From Pseudomonadota bacterium (GTDB lineage: Bacteria; Pseudomonadota; Gammaproteobacteria; Burkholderiales; REEB80), in NCBI GenBank assembly GCA_018971485.1, contig JAGXAQ010000003.1, forward strand, positions 62,001 to 126,000: a stretch of DNA of 64,000 bases, in the 5' to 3' direction. The position numbers were made by a program, and so were the translations under genes. Below the pieces are notes generated by a model that saw only the letters and a list, made by a program, of their open reading frames with translations, did no database searches and had not been told where the DNA came from. Shown here in pieces: positions 1 to 10,199 of this stretch; positions within the stretch are counted from its first letter, which is position 1, and every line of letters starts with the position of its first letter.

Positions 1-2
1 GG

Positions 3-863
3 ATGCCCTGGGTAGCGTTTCTTGCGCTTATTGGCACTCTGGCCATTGCCGGGCTTCCTCCTTTAAATGGATTTGTTTCTGAATGGCTGTTACTGCAGAC
101 ATTTCTGCTTACTACCGGTTTTCCCCAACCATATCTTAATATGCTGATACCAGTTGCCGCTGCAGGATTAGTACTCGTGGCGGCGGTTGCCGCTTATGTC
201 ATGGTCAAGTTCTATGCCCTAATTTTTCTTGGCCAGCCCCGTGAAGTAAGGCAACATGAGGCAAAGGATGCAAATTACTGGGAACGCCTGGGCTTGTCCT
301 GGCTGGCTAGTTGCTGTGTACTTCTAGGGCTGTTCCCGGTAGAAGTCATCAAGCTCCTAAATACAGTACCGGGCTTATTGCTAGGACAGGCAACTAAAAA
401 AGTAGCCAGCCAGGCAAACTGGCTTTTCCTTACACCCCTTTCTCCTGACAGGGCAAGTTACAGCCCCATGCTTTTCTTTGGCGCTGCAGCCATAATCATC
501 CTGATTACTTTCCTTGGAGTCAGGCTGGTCTATCACGGGCGAGTCCGGCGGAGTTCACCCTGGGACTGTGGTTATCCAATGCAAACCTCCAGAATGCAAG
601 AGACTGCGGAAAGTTTTGGTCAACCAATACGCACCATATTTTCACCCTTTTTCCGTATGCACAGTGAACTGCCTTCCCCATCAGATCTTGAACCACATTA
701 TCGCAACATCACTGAGGATCGGTTCTGGTATCTGCTTTATTTTCCGATTGGAAGATTTTTTCATTTCCTGTCCAATCTCTTCGGTCGCCTTCAGCAGGGA
801 CGTATTGCCATTTATTTACTTTACAGTTTTCTAACGCTGATTTTGTTACTGCTATTAATATGA
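3..863 (+). CDS. hyfB: Hyf/NuoL-like proton-translocating membrane subunit (HyfB-like), 5' end truncated by window edge
   Basis: C-terminal part of a complex-I antiporter-like protein (GLPPLNGFVSEWLLLQTF motif, multiple TM segments); first gene of a collinear hyf-like cluster. Confidence 0.8.
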   Translation: MPWVAFLALIGTLAIAGLPPLNGFVSEWLLLQTFLLTTGFPQPYLNMLIPVAAAGLVLVAAVAAYVMVKFYALIFLGQPREVRQHEAKDANYWERLGLSWLASCCVLLGLFPVEVIKLLNTVPGLLLGQATKKVASQANWLFLTPLSPDRASYSPMLFFGAAAIIILITFLGVRLVYHGRVRRSSPWDCGYPMQTSRMQETAESFGQPIRTIFSPFFRMHSELPSPSDLEPHYRNITEDRFWYLLYFPIGRFFHFLSNLFGRLQQGRIAIYLLYSFLTLILLLLLI

Positions 864-1810
864 CAATTCCATATGGCTTTATTTTTCAGTTTATCCAGCT
901 TATTATGGCGCTGGTTTTGAGCCCGATGTTTCTTGGTTGGATTAACCAGTGCCGCTGCTGGCTCCAGAACCGGAAGGGCCCGGGAGTTTTCCAGCCCTAT
1001 CGGCAACTTGTTAAGCTTTTTTACAAAGATGCGGTTCTCGCTGAGAATGCTTCGCCTTTGTTCCGAATGACACCCTATTTCCTGTTTGCATGCATGTGTC
1101 TTGCAGGAACAATTGTCCCGGTGCTCGCAACCAACCTTCCATTTGCTTCTGTAGCTGATGTAATCGTTTTGGTGGGGATTTTTGCTCTAGCGAGGGTATT
1201 TCTTGCATTGGCGGCCATGGATATTGGAACCGCTTTTGGTAATCTGGGTGCGCGACGTGAAATGATGATAGGGTTCCTTGCCGAACCTGCATTATTGATG
1301 GTGCTATTTACCCTTGCTTTTATAAGCCACTCAACAAATCTGACCACCATTGTGGACACCCTCTCCCATACCAGATTTATCATTTATCCCAGCATGGCAT
1401 TTGCCATGGCAGCCTATCTCATGGTCCTTCTAGCTGAAAATTCACGTATTCCCGTAGATAATCCTTCGACCCATTTAGAACTGACCATGATCCATGAAGC
1501 CATGATGCTCGAATACTCTGCAAGACATCTTGCGCTGCTTGAATGGGCTAGCAGTATCAAACTTTATGACTATTTCGTGATCGGTTTCGCTCTTTTTGTT
1601 CCATGGGGGATCGCCTCTGGAAGCCACTTAAGCAGCATGCTCCTCGCATTTCTTGCCCTTTTCATAAAACTTGCAGTTGCAGGATTCGGGCTGGCCTTAA
1701 TTGAAGCCCTTTCTGCGAAAATGCGAATATTCCGTGTTCCCGAATTTCTAGGTACTGCATTCATGCTGGCTGTACTGGGTACACTAACCCACTTTCTCCT
1801 AGAGGCATGA
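860..1810 (+). CDS. hyfC: Respiratory chain complex I / hydrogenase-4 subunit 1-like membrane protein (HyfC/NuoH-like)
   Basis: NuoH-like features (QNRKGPGVFQPYRQLVKLFYKD, ENSRIPVDNPSTHLELTMIHEAM); overlaps upstream gene by 4 bp. Confidence 0.85.
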   Translation: MTIPYGFIFQFIQLIMALVLSPMFLGWINQCRCWLQNRKGPGVFQPYRQLVKLFYKDAVLAENASPLFRMTPYFLFACMCLAGTIVPVLATNLPFASVADVIVLVGIFALARVFLALAAMDIGTAFGNLGARREMMIGFLAEPALLMVLFTLAFISHSTNLTTIVDTLSHTRFIIYPSMAFAMAAYLMVLLAENSRIPVDNPSTHLELTMIHEAMMLEYSARHLALLEWASSIKLYDYFVIGFALFVPWGIASGSHLSSMLLAFLALFIKLAVAGFGLALIEALSAKMRIFRVPEFLGTAFMLAVLGTLTHFLLEA

Positions 1811-2472
1811 CCATGATCCCTTTGTCAAGTCAACTGCTCAACCTTCTTGCAGCATTGTTTCTACTCATTTCCTTTGCAATGCTTGCTCAAAGGCGGATAC
1901 TAAGCCTGATACACTTATATGCCTGTCAGGGGCTGGTGCTCAGTTTAAGCGCACTTATTGTTGCCTATTCAACCTCTCAATCTCACCTGTACTACTCAAT
2001 GTTTCTAAATTTTGCATTAAAAGTCCTGATAGTCCCCTGGATTCTCCATCGGTTGATTCATCGGCTTAACGTGCAATGGGATGTTGAAACCCTGATCAAT
2101 ATTCCGACAATCATGCTTCTGGGTCTTGCACTCGTCATTTTTGCCTTCAATCTGTCATTACCAATCGTGCATCTGGCAGGGACAATCAATCGCAGCACTC
2201 TGGGAATTGCCCTAGCCAGTGTGCTGCTTTCCTTTCTCATGATGATTACCCGTAGCAAAGCAGTTTCTCAGGTCATCGGTTTTCTGGCCCTGGAAAACAG
2301 CCTTATTTTTGCAGCAACAAGCATTACCTATGGGATGCCTATGATGGTTGAGCTTGGGATTGCCCTGGATGTCCTTGTCGGGATATTTATTCTTGGTGTT
2401 TTTTTCTTTCACATACGCAACCAGTTTGACAGTCTCGAGCTCAAGCATATGGAAAAACTCAAGGATAACTAG
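1807..2472 (+). CDS. hyfE: HyfE-like membrane subunit (hydrogenase-4 component E)
   Basis: Multi-TM protein at the hyfE position between hyfC- and hyfF-like genes. Confidence 0.75.
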   Translation: MTMIPLSSQLLNLLAALFLLISFAMLAQRRILSLIHLYACQGLVLSLSALIVAYSTSQSHLYYSMFLNFALKVLIVPWILHRLIHRLNVQWDVETLINIPTIMLLGLALVIFAFNLSLPIVHLAGTINRSTLGIALASVLLSFLMMITRSKAVSQVIGFLALENSLIFAATSITYGMPMMVELGIALDVLVGIFILGVFFFHIRNQFDSLELKHMEKLKDN

Positions 2473-2474
2473 CC

Positions 2475-3923
2475 ATGGAAATCCTCCTATTGCTTTTTAT
2501 ACCTCTTTTAGGCGGATTTCTCCTGGCCTTTTTTGGAAATCACCGCCTGGCGGCAGAACTAAACTCGATCATCAGTTTCCTGACCTTGATTAACGCAGGT
2601 TTTTTGGCTGCAAGAATAATCTCATATGGCTCCATAGTTGTCTTTCATGAACAGTTTTTTGTTGATCCTTTCAATATCTTCCTGGTAGCCCTGACAGCTC
2701 TGGTTGCCTTTACTACTTCGCTTTTCAGTCGTCCTTATATGAGAATTGAACAACATCACGGAAAACTGACCGAAAATCGGCTCCGCCTATACCACTGCAT
2801 GTATCAGTTCTTTACCTTCACCATGCTTCTTGCATTGTTGACCAATAACATGGGTATTCTCTGGGTCGCCATGGAAGCAGCAACCTTAACTACCGTTCTG
2901 CTCGTCAGTCTTTATCGGACCCCTGCAAGCCTTGAAGCAGCCTGGAAATATTTTATTCTTTGCGGGGTAGGTATTGCCCAGGCGCTATTTGGAACCATCC
3001 TGTTCTATTTTGCAGCAGAAAAATTGCTAGGAATTCATTCAAGTCTGCTCTGGACCCATCTTGATGAAGTCAAAAACCGGCTTGATCCTACGGTCATGTC
3101 GGTAGCATTTGTATTCCTGCTTGTTGGCTATGGTACAAAAGTCGGCCTCGCGCCAATGCATAACTGGCTTCCTGATGCCCATGCTGAAGGCCCTACCCCC
3201 ATATCTGCAGTTCTTTCAGGATTATTGCTCAATGTTGCTCTGTACGCTGTAGTGCGCTGTAAGATATTGACCGATGGAGCCCTCCACAACCATTTTGCCG
3301 GAAATCTGATGATCGGGTTTGGTTTGCTCTCACTGATCGTGGCGGTATTTTCTCTGTCACGCCAAAAAGATATCAAGCGCCTATTTGGCTATTCTTCTAT
3401 TGAACATATGGGGCTGATAACCTTTGCATTTGGCATGGGAGGGCCAATTGCCAATTTTGCCGGCTTACTTCATATGACTGTTCATTCACTGACCAAATCA
3501 GCAATATTTTTTACTGTAGGCCATGCTGCTCAAAAAACACGCACACAGATCATGGAAAATATCCGGGGTCTGCTTGTCCAAAGTCCAACAGTAGGATGGG
3601 GTCTGATGCTTGGCAGTCTTGCTATTCTGGGAATGCCCCCTTTTGGAGTTTTTGCAAGTGAATTTCTCATCCTGACCACAGCCATGAAGCAGGAGCCCTG
3701 GGCAACCCCTTTATTACTTATAGCTCTGGCAGTTGCATTTGCTGCAATTTTTGGCAAGGTTCAACCTATGGTTTTTGGTGAGACTACCGCTCAAAGAACC
3801 CCACACCCCCCGGCATTACTGCCTGTATTTTTACATTTGTCCTTCGTATTGATGCTGGGTTTATTCATTCCCATGTATTTAGCCAACTGGTACCGGGAAG
3901 CAGCCGGTCTCATCGGTTATTGA
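2475..3923 (+). CDS. hyfF: HyfF-like proton-translocating subunit (NuoL/M/N family)
   Basis: Antiporter-like motifs: GYGTKVGLAPMHNWLPDAHAEGPTPISAVLSGLLLN, FGYSSIEHMGLITF. Confidence 0.85.
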   Translation: MEILLLLFIPLLGGFLLAFFGNHRLAAELNSIISFLTLINAGFLAARIISYGSIVVFHEQFFVDPFNIFLVALTALVAFTTSLFSRPYMRIEQHHGKLTENRLRLYHCMYQFFTFTMLLALLTNNMGILWVAMEAATLTTVLLVSLYRTPASLEAAWKYFILCGVGIAQALFGTILFYFAAEKLLGIHSSLLWTHLDEVKNRLDPTVMSVAFVFLLVGYGTKVGLAPMHNWLPDAHAEGPTPISAVLSGLLLNVALYAVVRCKILTDGALHNHFAGNLMIGFGLLSLIVAVFSLSRQKDIKRLFGYSSIEHMGLITFAFGMGGPIANFAGLLHMTVHSLTKSAIFFTVGHAAQKTRTQIMENIRGLLVQSPTVGWGLMLGSLAILGMPPFGVFASEFLILTTAMKQEPWATPLLLIALAVAFAAIFGKVQPMVFGETTAQRTPHPPALLPVFLHLSFVLMLGLFIPMYLANWYREAAGLIGY

Positions 3924-3971: not shown

Positions 3972-5525
3972 ATGACTGACCTTAAAGAACTGAACATTGA
4001 GCTTAATCCATTACCTGGAGCAATTCCTGCCACCTTTGCTTTGGTAAACGATGAAACACTCCTGACAACATGTCGGACCTGTCAGGAAAATGGTGGGCGT
4101 CTTGTAGCAATTTGGGCAACCGATGCATGTTATCAAACCTCCAAAGTCCGGTTTACCCTTCATGTTGCTCTGGCGTTTTCCCAAGGACTTGTGTGCCTTT
4201 TTCATCCTATTCTCAATAATCCACCATCCTGCCCTGATCTGGGTGATATTTTTTTACCGGCAAGGCGGATGCAACGAGCCCTGTTTGACATGATGGGTAT
4301 TCATTTCACGGCGCATGACAAGCGTCCCTGGCTACGCCATGGGGCCTGGCCTGAGACCCTGTTTCCACTCAGAAAGGATGCAGATCAAACCCTGTGTTAT
4401 CCAAATGAGCACGAACCGTATCCATTCATAGAGGTTACTGGTGAGGGGGTTCATGAAATAGCTGTTGGCCCGGTCCATGCCGGAATCATTGAACCGGGAC
4501 ATTTCCGATTCCAGGTCGTTGGCGAAAAAATCCTTCGTTTGGAAGAGCGGCTTGGATATACGCACAAAGGAATCGAAAAACGTTTCGAATCCATGAAATG
4601 GGCCGAAGGGGTTAAACTTGCCGGAAGAATCAGTGGGGATAGTGCAGCCGCCTATAGCTGGGCCTATGCCATGGCGGTAGAAAGTCTGTATGGGCACACC
4701 GCTCCCATACGTTCCCTATGGTTACGCGCTCTTGCTCTTGAACGAGAACGTATAGCCAATCATCTAGGTGATCTGGGGGCATTGGGGAATGATGGGGGTC
4801 TGGCTTTCGGGCTATCGCAGTTTTCAAGAATAAAGGAAGACTGGATCCGGACAAATGATCTGATTTTCGGCCACCGCTACCTGATGGATTTTATCATTCC
4901 AGGCGGTGTAACCCATGATGTGACTCATTTACAAACCATCCAGATCCAACATGAAGTTCAGGTAATTCGAAAAGAGGTCCGCAATCTTAAACGTATTTAT
5001 GATGAACATGCAGGCTTACAGGATCGATTCTTGATGACCGGCAGAATTCCACCAAAACTCGCTACTGAATTGGGGATGATTGGGCTTGCAGGCCGTTCTA
5101 GTGGAGTCGCTTTTGATTTAAGAACGCAATTTCCCTGCGCGCCATATGATACCTTAAACATCAACATGATAACCCATCATAATGGTGATGTGGCTGCTAG
5201 GGTTATTGTGAGGTTTGAAGAAATATTTGAATCATTACGTCTGATTGAATTAATTCTAGCGAAATTACCTTTGGGAGGCGTTCAATCTGATTTGCCCGAA
5301 ACCTCCTCAAACAGTATCGGATTAGGCTGGGTAGAAGGATGGCGCGGAGAAATTTTTTTTGCCATTCATACAGATAATTCAAAAAAACCCTTCCGGATTC
5401 ACGTGCATGATCCTTCCTGGCAGAACTGGCCAGCAATTGAATATGCTGCTATGGGTAATATGGTTGCTGATTTTCCGCTCATTAACAAATCTTTTAACCT
5501 AAGTTACAGTGGCCATGATTTATGA
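3972..5525 (+). CDS. Fused NuoC/NuoD-like (HyfG-type) large subunit lacking the NiFe cysteines; Ehr-type
   Basis: NuoC-like N-terminus plus NiFe large-subunit/NuoD-like C-terminus (LEERLGYTHKGIEKRFE...RISGDSAAAYSW). RxCGxC appears as RISGDS; C-terminus ends DFPLINKSFNLSYSGHDL with no DPCxxC. Confidence 0.85.
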   Translation: MTDLKELNIELNPLPGAIPATFALVNDETLLTTCRTCQENGGRLVAIWATDACYQTSKVRFTLHVALAFSQGLVCLFHPILNNPPSCPDLGDIFLPARRMQRALFDMMGIHFTAHDKRPWLRHGAWPETLFPLRKDADQTLCYPNEHEPYPFIEVTGEGVHEIAVGPVHAGIIEPGHFRFQVVGEKILRLEERLGYTHKGIEKRFESMKWAEGVKLAGRISGDSAAAYSWAYAMAVESLYGHTAPIRSLWLRALALERERIANHLGDLGALGNDGGLAFGLSQFSRIKEDWIRTNDLIFGHRYLMDFIIPGGVTHDVTHLQTIQIQHEVQVIRKEVRNLKRIYDEHAGLQDRFLMTGRIPPKLATELGMIGLAGRSSGVAFDLRTQFPCAPYDTLNINMITHHNGDVAARVIVRFEEIFESLRLIELILAKLPLGGVQSDLPETSSNSIGLGWVEGWRGEIFFAIHTDNSKKPFRIHVHDPSWQNWPAIEYAAMGNMVADFPLINKSFNLSYSGHDL

Positions 5526-5565: not shown

Positions 5566-6117
5566 ATGTACAAACTGCTGAAACAAATTGTCAAGAACGG
5601 TATCAGAAGCGAGCCGGTACTCGAGTCTGATACTGCTCTGAAAATAACCTGCCAAAAACTAGGCGAAAACATATTAAAGCAGTTCGGTCGCTCGCTGGCT
5701 ATTCGACATATTGATACTGGCTCATGCAATGCATGTGAACTAGAAATCCACGCTTTAAACAACCCCTACTACAATCTAGAAGGATTAGGCATCCATTTTG
5801 TAGCAAGCCCCCGTCATGCTGATATGCTTTTGGTTACAGGCCCTGTATCACGGCATATGGAAGTAGCATTACGTAGAACCTATGAGGCCATTCCTGATCC
5901 AAAACTGGTTGTTTCTATAGGAGATTGCAGTTTTTCTGAGGGATTGTTTAAAAAAAATTATGCAACTATTGGCAGTGTATCTGAAGTTATCCCAGTAGAT
6001 ATCTTTATTCCGGGTTGCCCCCCTGATCCCAGAAGGATCATGACAGCCATCTTTGCTGCAATTCAGATAAAAAAACCAGAGGGAAATCCAACTGATTCTA
6101 ATATTAACCCCTTATAA
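5566..6117 (+). CDS. hyfI: HyfI/NuoB-like small subunit with [4Fe-4S] ligands
   Basis: GSCNACELE, SIGDCSF and PGCPPDP motifs, typical of group 4 hydrogenase small subunits/NuoB. Confidence 0.85.
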   Translation: MYKLLKQIVKNGIRSEPVLESDTALKITCQKLGENILKQFGRSLAIRHIDTGSCNACELEIHALNNPYYNLEGLGIHFVASPRHADMLLVTGPVSRHMEVALRRTYEAIPDPKLVVSIGDCSFSEGLFKKNYATIGSVSEVIPVDIFIPGCPPDPRRIMTAIFAAIQIKKPEGNPTDSNINPL

Positions 6118-6288: not shown

Positions 6289-6362
6289 TGGAGGCGGGGG
6301 TCGGAATCGAACCGGCGTCCACGGCTTTGCAGGCCGCTGCATAACCACTCTGCCACCCCGCC
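6289..6362 (-). tRNA. tRNA-Cys (GCA)
   Basis: Reverse complement GGCGGGGTGGCAGAGTGGTTATGCAGCGGCCTGCAAAGCCGTGGACGCCGGTTCGAATCCGACCCCCGCCTCCA; cloverleaf, GCA anticodon, encoded CCA. Confidence 0.93.
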
Positions 6363-6415
6363 ATAAACTTATTATCATAAGAAAAAAGGAAAGCTTTTGG
6401 CTTCCCCGGGTAATT

Positions 6416-6490
6416 TGGAGCGGGAAACGAGGTTCGAACTCGCGACCCCAACCTTGGCAAGGTTGTGCTCTACCACTGAGCTATTCCCGC
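6416..6490 (-). tRNA. tRNA-Gly (GCC)
   Basis: Reverse complement GCGGGAATAGCTCAGTGGTAGAGCACAACCTTGCCAAGGTTGGGGTCGCGAGTTCGAACCTCGTTTCCCGCTCCA; GCC anticodon, encoded CCA. Confidence 0.95.
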
Positions 6491-6971: not shown

Positions 6972-7240
6972 CCGGTGTAGTGGTTGTAACGGCCTGAACT
7001 TACCCGTGACGACTGGCGCTGCTGCAGCCACAGGTAATCACCGGCCAGATTGATGTACCCCACCAGCCCTACGGCGACAGGTATTGCAACAGCATGTCAT
7101 CGGTGGCATGGCCATTGCCACGCAGCGCATGTATTGTGTGCTCCAGATAGACCGTATTCCATAATACGACGGCCGCCGTCACCAGGTTGATGTCGCCGCC
7201 CGCCGCATCGAGGGCCCGACACAGCCACGCTAAAACATCC
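6960..7240 (-). pseudogene. tnpA: Tn3-family transposase (TnpA) C-terminal remnant, frameshifted
   Basis: Fragments in three minus frames: [40 protein letters not shown](stop), then GYINLAGDYLW, then GKFRPLQPL; collinear with a Tn3-family TnpA C-terminus. Confidence 0.82.
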
Positions 7241-7346
7241 AGGCCGATGCCCGTTTCAAAAGCCGTGCGCACAACATGCACGCTCACTCCATCGTCATAC
7301 GCCAGTTGCAATACCGTGTAGGTGCCCACCGCACACATCCTTGCCC

Positions 7347-9330
<1,984 letters not shown>

Positions 9331-9342
9331 GACAATTTCCTT

Positions 9343-9693
9343 TTAATAGAACAGCGGCAGGATGTACGGAAAAACGAGTGCAACCAGGATCAATGTGGCC
9401 ACGACCCAGAAAAGCAGCCTGTAGGCCATGCGTACCTGCGGGAGCGCGCAGACCTCGCCCGGACTGCAGGCACTGGTTGGCCGGAAAATGCGTCGCCAGG
9501 CAAAGTACAGCGCAACCAGCGCCACACCAATGAAGATCGGCCGGTAAGGTTCCAGTACCGTCAGGTTGCCAATCCAGGCACCGGAAAAATCCAGGGCAAC
9601 CAGAACCAGTGGCCCCAGACAACAGGTCGATGCAAGGATAGCTGCCAGCCCGCCAGCGAGGAGTGTACCACGTCCGTTTCGCAGTTTAGACAT
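9343..9693 (-). CDS. merT: Mercuric ion transporter MerT
   Basis: STCCLGPL vicinal Cys pair in TM1, SACSPGEVCALPQ cytoplasmic loop; start at MSKLRNGRG. Confidence 0.95.
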   Translation of the reverse strand: MSKLRNGRGTLLAGGLAAILASTCCLGPLVLVALDFSGAWIGNLTVLEPYRPIFIGVALVALYFAWRRIFRPTSACSPGEVCALPQVRMAYRLLFWVVATLILVALVFPYILPLFY

Positions 9694-9728
9694 GCGTTTT
9701 CCCTTTTGAATTTGGATCGGATAGCGTA

Positions 9729-9759
9729 AAATTACTTCCGTAGTCATGTACGGAGTCAA
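9729..9759 (-). promoter_or_regulatory. mer operator/promoter (merTPA promoter with MerR dyad)
   Basis: Minus strand TTGACT-CCGTACATGACTACGGAAG-TAATTT: -35 and -10 separated by 19 bp with a central dyad (CCGTAC...CTACGG), as in Tn21/Tn501 merOP. Confidence 0.92.
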
Positions 9760-9764
9760 GCGAT

Positions 9765-10199
9765 ATGGAAAATAATTCGGGGAACCTGACCATTGGCGTT
9801 TTTGCCAGGGCGGCCGGGGTCAACGTGGAGACCATCCGTTTTTATCAGCGCAAGGGCTTGCTGACGAAACCAAACAAGCCTTACGGCAGCATTCGACGCT
9901 ATGGTAAAACGGATGTAACGCGAGTGCGATTCGTGAAATCGGCCCAGCGGCTAGGTTTCAGCCTGGACGAGATTGCTGAACTGTTGCGGCTTGACGATGG
10001 CACCCACTGCGGGGAAGCCAGCGGCCTGGCTGCGCACAAACTCAAGGACGTACGCGAGAAGATGGCCGACTTGGCGCGCATGGAGGCCATGCTATCTGAA
10101 TTGGTGTGCGCCTGTCATGCACGAAAAGAGAATGTTCCGTGCCCACTGATCACGTCGCTACAGGGCGGAGCAAGCCTGGCAGGTTCGGTTGTGCCTTAG
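9765..10199 (+). CDS. merR: Hg(II)-responsive transcriptional regulator MerR
   Basis: MerR HTH ([26 protein letters not shown]) plus the three Hg-ligand cysteines ([20 protein letters not shown]). Confidence 0.95.

Follow-up and report, generated by a model that had tools for sequence, protein, structure and literature searches.

Gene content and operon structure

The window, by which we mean the whole 64,000-nucleotide stretch of DNA that was analysed, opens within an operon of six genes, arranged in the order hyfB, hyfC, hyfE, hyfF, large subunit and small subunit (Table 1). The first of these, hyfB, starts approximately 1173 bases upstream of the window and encodes a product of 678 amino acids (G000 C15:60827-62863). 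An identical six-gene order is seen in 87 of 108 loci, the remainder being mostly interrupted by locus ends, and the same operon is found on plasmids of Variovorax, Paraburkholderia, Burkholderia, Rhizobium, Methylovirgula and Methylocalor, members of the alpha-, beta- and gamma-proteobacteria. The plasmid copies are annotated as hydrogenase 4, formate hydrogenlyase or NADH-quinone oxidoreductase, which, together with PMC5178258, bears out a caution in the initial annotation that the complex is easily mistaken for formate hydrogenlyase.

Table 1. Positions in the window of the operon's genes and of the motifs discussed in the text
Feature	Position	Strand	Remarks
hyfB-like subunit (NuoL-type antiporter-like, EhrA-type), 3' part	1..863	+	NCBIfam 'hydrogenase 4 subunit B'
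hyfC-like subunit (NuoH-type, EhrB-type)	860..1810	+	NADHdh, E 3e-34
Altered ND1 loop PVDNPSTHLELTMIHEAMMLEYS, residues 198-220 of the hyfC-like product	within 860..1810	+	
hyfE-like subunit (NuoK-like membrane subunit, EhrC-type)	1807..2472	+	NF008556 hydrogenase 4 membrane subunit, E 3e-24
hyfF-like subunit (NuoM/N-type antiporter-like)	2475..3923	+	NF005045, 866 bits, cut-off 543
Large subunit (EhrL-type), fused NuoC and NuoD domains	3972..5525	+	517 aa, intact ORF
RISGDS, residues 219-224, in place of RxCGxC	4626..4643	+	HycE alignment, 81 homologues
FNLSYSGHDL, large-subunit C-terminus, in place of DPCxxC and the cleaved tail	5493..5522	+	
Small subunit (EhrS-type, HyfI/NuoB-like)	5566..6117	+	Oxidored_q6, E 7e-28

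As in Ehr (energy-converting hydrogenase-related) complexes, membrane subunits of the complex I type, antiporter-like ones among them, are encoded in the same operon. The antiporter-like proteins possess the residues of proton-pumping subunits, Glu in TM5, Lys in TM7 and Lys/Glu in TM12. E150, K235, K266, K364, E419 and C581 are conserved in the hyfB-like subunit, and E134, K222, K341 and E396 are retained in the hyfF-like subunit, where the TM8 Lys is replaced by Asn253, as it is in E. coli HyfF.

A large subunit devoid of nickel ligands

The N-terminal, NuoC-like domain of the large subunit matches Complex1_30kDa and the C-terminal, NuoD/hydrogenase-like domain matches Complex1_49kDa, and a sequence comparison with the PDB gives E. 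coli HycE as the best match (7z0s_E, E 1e-57). The initial annotation had read the loss of all four Ni ligands from the two motifs at which hydrogenases carry RxCGxC and DPCxxC, and alignment with HycE confirms it: RVCGIC is replaced by RISGDS and DPCYSC by NLSYSG, so that none of the four cysteine ligands of group 4 hydrogenases is present, and the cleaved C-terminal tail of HycE is absent as well. The loss extends to relatives of the protein, as a CxxC was found at neither position in any of the 81 homologues aligned, which share 53-59% identity with the window protein. Position 221 is Ser in 80 of these homologues, position 222 is Gly in 80 and position 223 is Asp in all 81, while position 224 is Ser, Thr or Ala, position 511 is Ser or Ala, and position 514 is Gly. 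S221, G222, D223, N509, L510, Y512 and G514 are practically invariant, and 156 positions of the subunit are at least 97% conserved.

In complex I, a His and a Tyr of NuoD bind quinone. Neither is found in the large subunit, where alignment places I173 opposite His38, and G222 opposite Tyr87, of Thermus Nqo4. Because the Ni ligands and the quinone His/Tyr pair are both missing, the subunit would support neither Ni chemistry nor a standard quinone site. Other parts of the hydrogenase have been retained, including the 'EPGHFR' loop of HycE and HyfG, the beta1-beta2 loop Glu (E174, corresponding to HycE E193) and the canopy Arg (R458). Asn509 takes the place of the canopy Asp, a residue called strictly conserved in PMC9474812, where roles for the beta1-beta2 loop Glu and the canopy Arg are described.

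It had been suggested in the initial annotation that a predicted structure might reveal what occupies the former NiFe pocket. The prediction recovers a HycE-like fold (nearest structure 7z0s_E, TM 0.88), but although the AlphaFold model has an overall pLDDT of 82, segments 151-166, 168-198 and 507-517 fall below 50, and because these segments form much of the pocket its occupant is not readable from the model.

Some genomes possess a second copy of the complex that is 42-45% identical, including L093, with two operons approximately 7 kb apart, L098 and L108. These paralogues keep the hydrogenase His that follows the motif (RVSGDSTVAH, as compared to RVCGICGFAH). A second, very divergent ligand-less complex (SIVGDSS...SFDLSYCGNDL) is found on a Variovorax plasmid (L112:1-3479), and its small subunit is fused to a ferredoxin-like domain.

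An altered ND1 loop in the NuoH-type subunit

The ND1 loop of the NuoH-type subunit couples the active site to the pump, and mutation of E199/E201/E203 in the ND1 loop of HycD lowers H2 production by 99% (PMC9474812). In the window this loop, DNPSTHLELTMIHEAM, is three residues longer than in hydrogenases and is rich in His and Glu, with THLELTMIHEA standing where hydrogenases have AEAEQEL---QEG. Five hydrogenase homologues and the NuoH of the host share the sequence D-x-AE[AG]E-x-E-[LI], immediately after which the next helix begins, and the coupling-loop motif of NuoH proteins (D-x-AEGE/AEAE-x-E) is absent from the hyfC-like subunit. The replacement is itself strongly conserved, as H205, E207, M210 and E213 are found in 98 of 98 relatives and H212 in 97 of the 98.

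The longer loop is also seen in Rhodococcus and Allomeiothermus, and in a further-altered form in Burkholderia cenocepacia and Mycobacterium branderi; the large subunit is ligand-less in each. In the sequences sampled, the change in the ND1 loop and the loss of Ni ligands are always paired, and the loop occurs in no hydrogenase or complex I sequence. A limited search, covering excerpts of the literature, found no earlier description of the long loop, and its novelty is not proven.

One iron-sulfur site and no ferredoxin subunit

The small subunit was originally described as retaining the cysteines of a [4Fe-4S] cluster in the motifs GSCNAC, GDC and PGC, and the description holds: C54, C57, C121 and C151 each show at least 95% conservation among 101 relatives. 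All four proximal-cluster cysteines have nevertheless been lost in two distant relatives, Mycobacterium branderi (L128:13652-14446) and Allomeiothermus silvanus (L129:13463-14335), where GSCNACELE has become GSNGSDEWE and GNTGLDDTE, respectively, and PGCPP has become PGAPA and PGSPA. As the operon is complete in both despite the loss, these two cases show that the predicted architecture of the complex can persist without the proximal [4Fe-4S] cluster. Because they are distant relatives, their loss of cysteines does not make the complex of the window non-redox.

The ferredoxin-like subunit of the hydrogenases appears to have no counterpart. A search for proteins bearing two [4Fe-4S] motifs no more than 2 kb from the operon gave a match in one of 87 complete loci, as against 6 of the 6 hydrogenase and complex I clusters that served as controls. 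We take the single match, from its sequence, to resemble a neighbouring RnfB. HycI, HycH, HycF, HycB and FdhF are likewise absent from the operon cluster, unlike the formate hydrogenlyase clusters of Pantoea, Rhodovastum and Azospirillum, which also hold HycB/HyfA and HycF ferredoxins, HycH, HycI, FdhF and Hyp genes.

Descent, distribution and selection

In a tree of 31 sequences, a step proposed at the outset, the 25 ligand-less large subunits form one monophyletic group (support 100/99) that joins E. coli HycE and HyfG (99/94) and stands apart from Nuo proteins and MbhL, beside the group 4 hydrogenases as would be expected of Ehr proteins. The tree is midpoint-rooted, holds some long rows and few references, and includes no Ehr sequence from Nitrospira, Geobacter or Sulfobacillus. 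The link to formate hydrogenlyase agrees with the retained 'EPGHFR' loop and with the His-bearing paralogues described above.

The host genome is 1.93 Mb in size and rated 100% complete (G000). HypD, a maturase of the NiFe cofactor, was not found in it by a search in which the E. coli control was positive, and the building of a [NiFe] site is thus not to be expected in this host. A full complex I locus is present elsewhere in the genome. RuBisCO was found neither in the host nor in its sister species.

Orthologues of the complex (E < 1e-100) are present in 53 of 220 genomes of the order, with one further match, G175, representing a divergent form; HypD is missing from 17 of the 53 carriers. 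As raw counts that ignore kinship, presence of the complex associates with RuBisCO (37 of 53 carriers as compared to 44 of 167 other genomes; odds ratio 6.5, p 2e-8), with HypD (odds ratio 7.7) and with NifH (odds ratio 7.2), and the three associations may mark one shared lifestyle. A role in support of nitrogen fixation, suggested by the NifH association, was rejected, as NifH was not found in the host genome. A role in carbon fixation was retained as a lead only, since the association at the level of the order is not matched by RuBisCO in the host or its sister.

Relative to the sister species, dN/dS is 0.05-0.14 for all six genes, indicating purifying selection and not decay, and the window copy differs from the family at only 2-7% of near-invariant columns per protein.

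Neighbouring genes and candidate partners

No conserved partner gene was found among the neighbours of the operon in the loci of relatives. An oxalyl-CoA decarboxylase gene (TIGR03254, above cut-off) lies approximately 1 kb upstream of the operon in the host (G000 C15, ~58.0-59.8 kb; L004:12037-13794), and was rejected as a conserved formate partner because the sister species does not have it next to the complex. Nor does a formate dehydrogenase qualify, there being no enrichment of this enzyme in carriers (odds ratio 1.4, p 0.40, from a loose family search). Apart from the complex itself, the loci of host and sister species have only a divergently transcribed 170-amino-acid protein in common. 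MetG, Mrp and Dcd are frequent neighbours of the operon, and were set aside as partners since they look like inherited synteny.

SulP anion transporters of two subfamilies are found near the operon in approximately 20 loci, often directly upstream and on the same strand; SulP/STAS genes occupy this position before hyfB in L016, L018-L020, L027, L031, L035, L036, L044, L063, L083, L085 and L097, and are preceded in some loci by DmsC. A CsoSCA-like carbonic anhydrase neighbours the operon in L016, where RuBisCO is 6 kb away, and in L020 and L109; hexapeptide (gamma-type) carbonic-anhydrase-like genes lie near it in some beta-proteobacteria; and the hyf cluster of Acidithiobacillus caldus adjoins a beta-carbonic anhydrase gene (PMC3826726). 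A partner of the zinc carbonic anhydrase type was found neither in the window operon nor in the sister species, such neighbours being confined to a few relatives.

The window also contains, at 7069-10199, a mercury-resistance-like cluster of MerA-, MerP-, MerT- and MerR-like ORFs, named from their sequences, which is adjoined by tRNA-Cys and tRNA-Gly genes at 6289-6490.

Comparison with known systems

Ehr proteins are defined as homologues of group 4 hydrogenases that lack the NiFe-binding CxxC pairs (PMC10284858, PMC10432482 and PMC4378227), and the same class had been reached earlier in several studies (PMC6002666, PMC4378227, PMC12342949, PMC10284858 and PMC10432482). Large subunits of the group 4 type without Ni ligands are likewise described for the Ehr complexes of Geobacter (EhrA/C/L/S), Nitrospira, ammonia-oxidising archaea and Sulfobacillus, the last with six syntenic genes (PMC4378227), and the published complexes resemble that of the window, by description and not by alignment, in their NuoL-, HyfE- and NuoH-like membrane subunits (PMC12342949, PMC10432482, PMC7894505). 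No increase of Ehr expression with H2 is seen in Nitrospira moscoviensis (PMC12342949). The closest published likeness in motifs is the hydrogenase-like cluster of Acidithiobacillus, also of six genes (PMC6002666 and PMC3826726), for which SGD[TS] and NLSYSGHDL have already been reported (PMC6002666); fdh genes are described in the A. thiooxidans cluster (PMC6002666), whereas none is seen in the window operon. With the large-subunit motifs already published, this analysis adds the ND1-loop signature, the missing ferredoxin subunit and the loss of Fe-S cysteines in relatives; the excerpts of the Ehr literature contain no mention of the first or the last.

E. coli formate hydrogenlyase and hydrogenase 4 (HycE, HyfG; 7z0s) share with the window complex a fused C/D subunit, the membrane arm and the proximal [4Fe-4S] site, whereas the window lacks the Ni ligands, the C-terminal tail, the HycB/HycF/HyfA/HyfH ferredoxins, FdhF, HycH and HycI, and its ND1 loop has been rewritten. 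Respiratory complex I (NuoD/NuoB/NuoH) has a homologous core and pump, but the window complex is without the quinone His/Tyr pair and the NADH module, and its small subunit carries CxxC in place of CC. NuoL-type subunits are also common to the inorganic-carbon systems DAB/MpsAB and NDH-1MS; here the likeness is one of functional analogy only, as the window operon encodes neither DabA nor a Cup protein.

Function of the complex and alternative readings

The locus almost certainly encodes an Ehr complex. This non-hydrogenase assignment, made at first from the motifs, has been strengthened by the family-wide loss of ligands, the monophyly of the ligand-less group and the lack of HypD in the genome. 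It is a complex in which the predicted pump residues and one putative [4Fe-4S] site are retained, and from which the ferredoxin subunit, a conserved partner and the canonical quinone site are missing. Ehr complexes are present in about a quarter of the order's sampled genomes and on plasmids, yet are annotated as hydrogen producers, and metabolic reconstructions that infer H2 production or formate hydrogenlyase from such genes, for instance in PMC5178258, may be wrong. The paired signature of large-subunit pocket and NuoH-type loop provides a simple test that distinguishes Ehr complexes from true hydrogenases, and flags residues of interest.

The explanation that we judge most probable as a whole is that an Ehr complex has arisen from a formate-hydrogenlyase-like (group 4a) ancestor and, devoid of H2 chemistry, would act as a single-cluster redox pump. 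Redox-coupled proton pumping is the mechanism that we favour; it rests on homology, and we hold it with evenly balanced confidence. Proton movement in HyfB/HyfF would be coupled, via the altered pocket and the ND1 loop, to electrons or to changes of charge at the one [4Fe-4S] cluster. A redox step of this kind is plausible, and the likely reaction would be an exchange of electrons by a soluble carrier, for instance a ferredoxin, with an acceptor in the former NiFe pocket other than H+ or a quinone bound by the His/Tyr pair of complex I. Against this explanation stand the missing ferredoxin subunit, the missing partner gene and link to formate dehydrogenase, the distant loss of cysteines, and Asn509.

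The ND1-loop signature, the missing ferredoxin subunit and the loss of Fe-S cysteines in relatives make a non-redox alternative worth considering, although we regard it as unlikely. Modelled by analogy on DAB/MpsAB and NDH-1MS, it proposes that proton-motive force would power chemistry or transport in the altered pocket, such as vectorial CO2 hydration or bicarbonate accumulation, at a site that the Ser/Asp pocket would form together with the His/Glu loop of HyfC. The association with RuBisCO is in keeping with such a role, as are the SulP transporters, the CsoSCA-like neighbours and the beta-carbonic anhydrase of A. caldus (PMC3826726), and the cluster cysteines are gone in two distant relatives. 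Yet RuBisCO is absent from host and sister species alike, and within the clade to which the window copy belongs conservation of the four cysteines is 95% or higher. The association statistics ignore kinship; MetG, a housekeeping gene, is a still commoner neighbour, so that synteny alone can yield such counts, and SulP adjoining DmsC may export sulfate instead. A further version of this reading, which also strikes us as unlikely, holds that the complex would no longer be an electron-transfer enzyme but a machine derived from complex I, in which proton movement would drive, or be driven by, non-redox chemistry such as CO2/bicarbonate conversion where the SGD...NLSYSG pocket meets the His/Glu ND1 loop; the Fe-S site would be a leftover of evolution, already gone in some relatives. 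Were the non-redox reading true, the coupling machinery of complex I would be working without its redox half.

It is also unlikely that the complex is a quinone oxidoreductase, a stripped complex I in whose former NiFe pocket quinone would take up electrons supplied by a soluble donor. The large subunit resembles NuoD in fold and position, its region 160-440 scores well with NuoD models, and the pump is intact, but I173 and G222 stand in place of the complex I quinone ligands, the ND1 loop is unlike that of NuoH, and the genome already encodes a full complex I.

That the complex is a working [NiFe] hydrogenase or formate hydrogenlyase whose ligands are unusual is very improbable, even though it is so annotated in databases and papers (PMC5178258) and Ehr proteins reach higher levels in Geobacter on formate than with hydrogen (PMC7894505). 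All four ligands are missing in every relative checked, the host has no HypD, and the cluster lacks HycI, HycH, HycF, HycB and FdhF, unlike those of Pantoea, Rhodovastum and Azospirillum.

A decaying, functionless hydrogenase remnant, which the ligand loss and the small host genome might suggest, is scarcely credible given the low dN/dS of all six genes, the few deviations at near-invariant columns, and the widespread occurrence of the complex with fixed replacement motifs.
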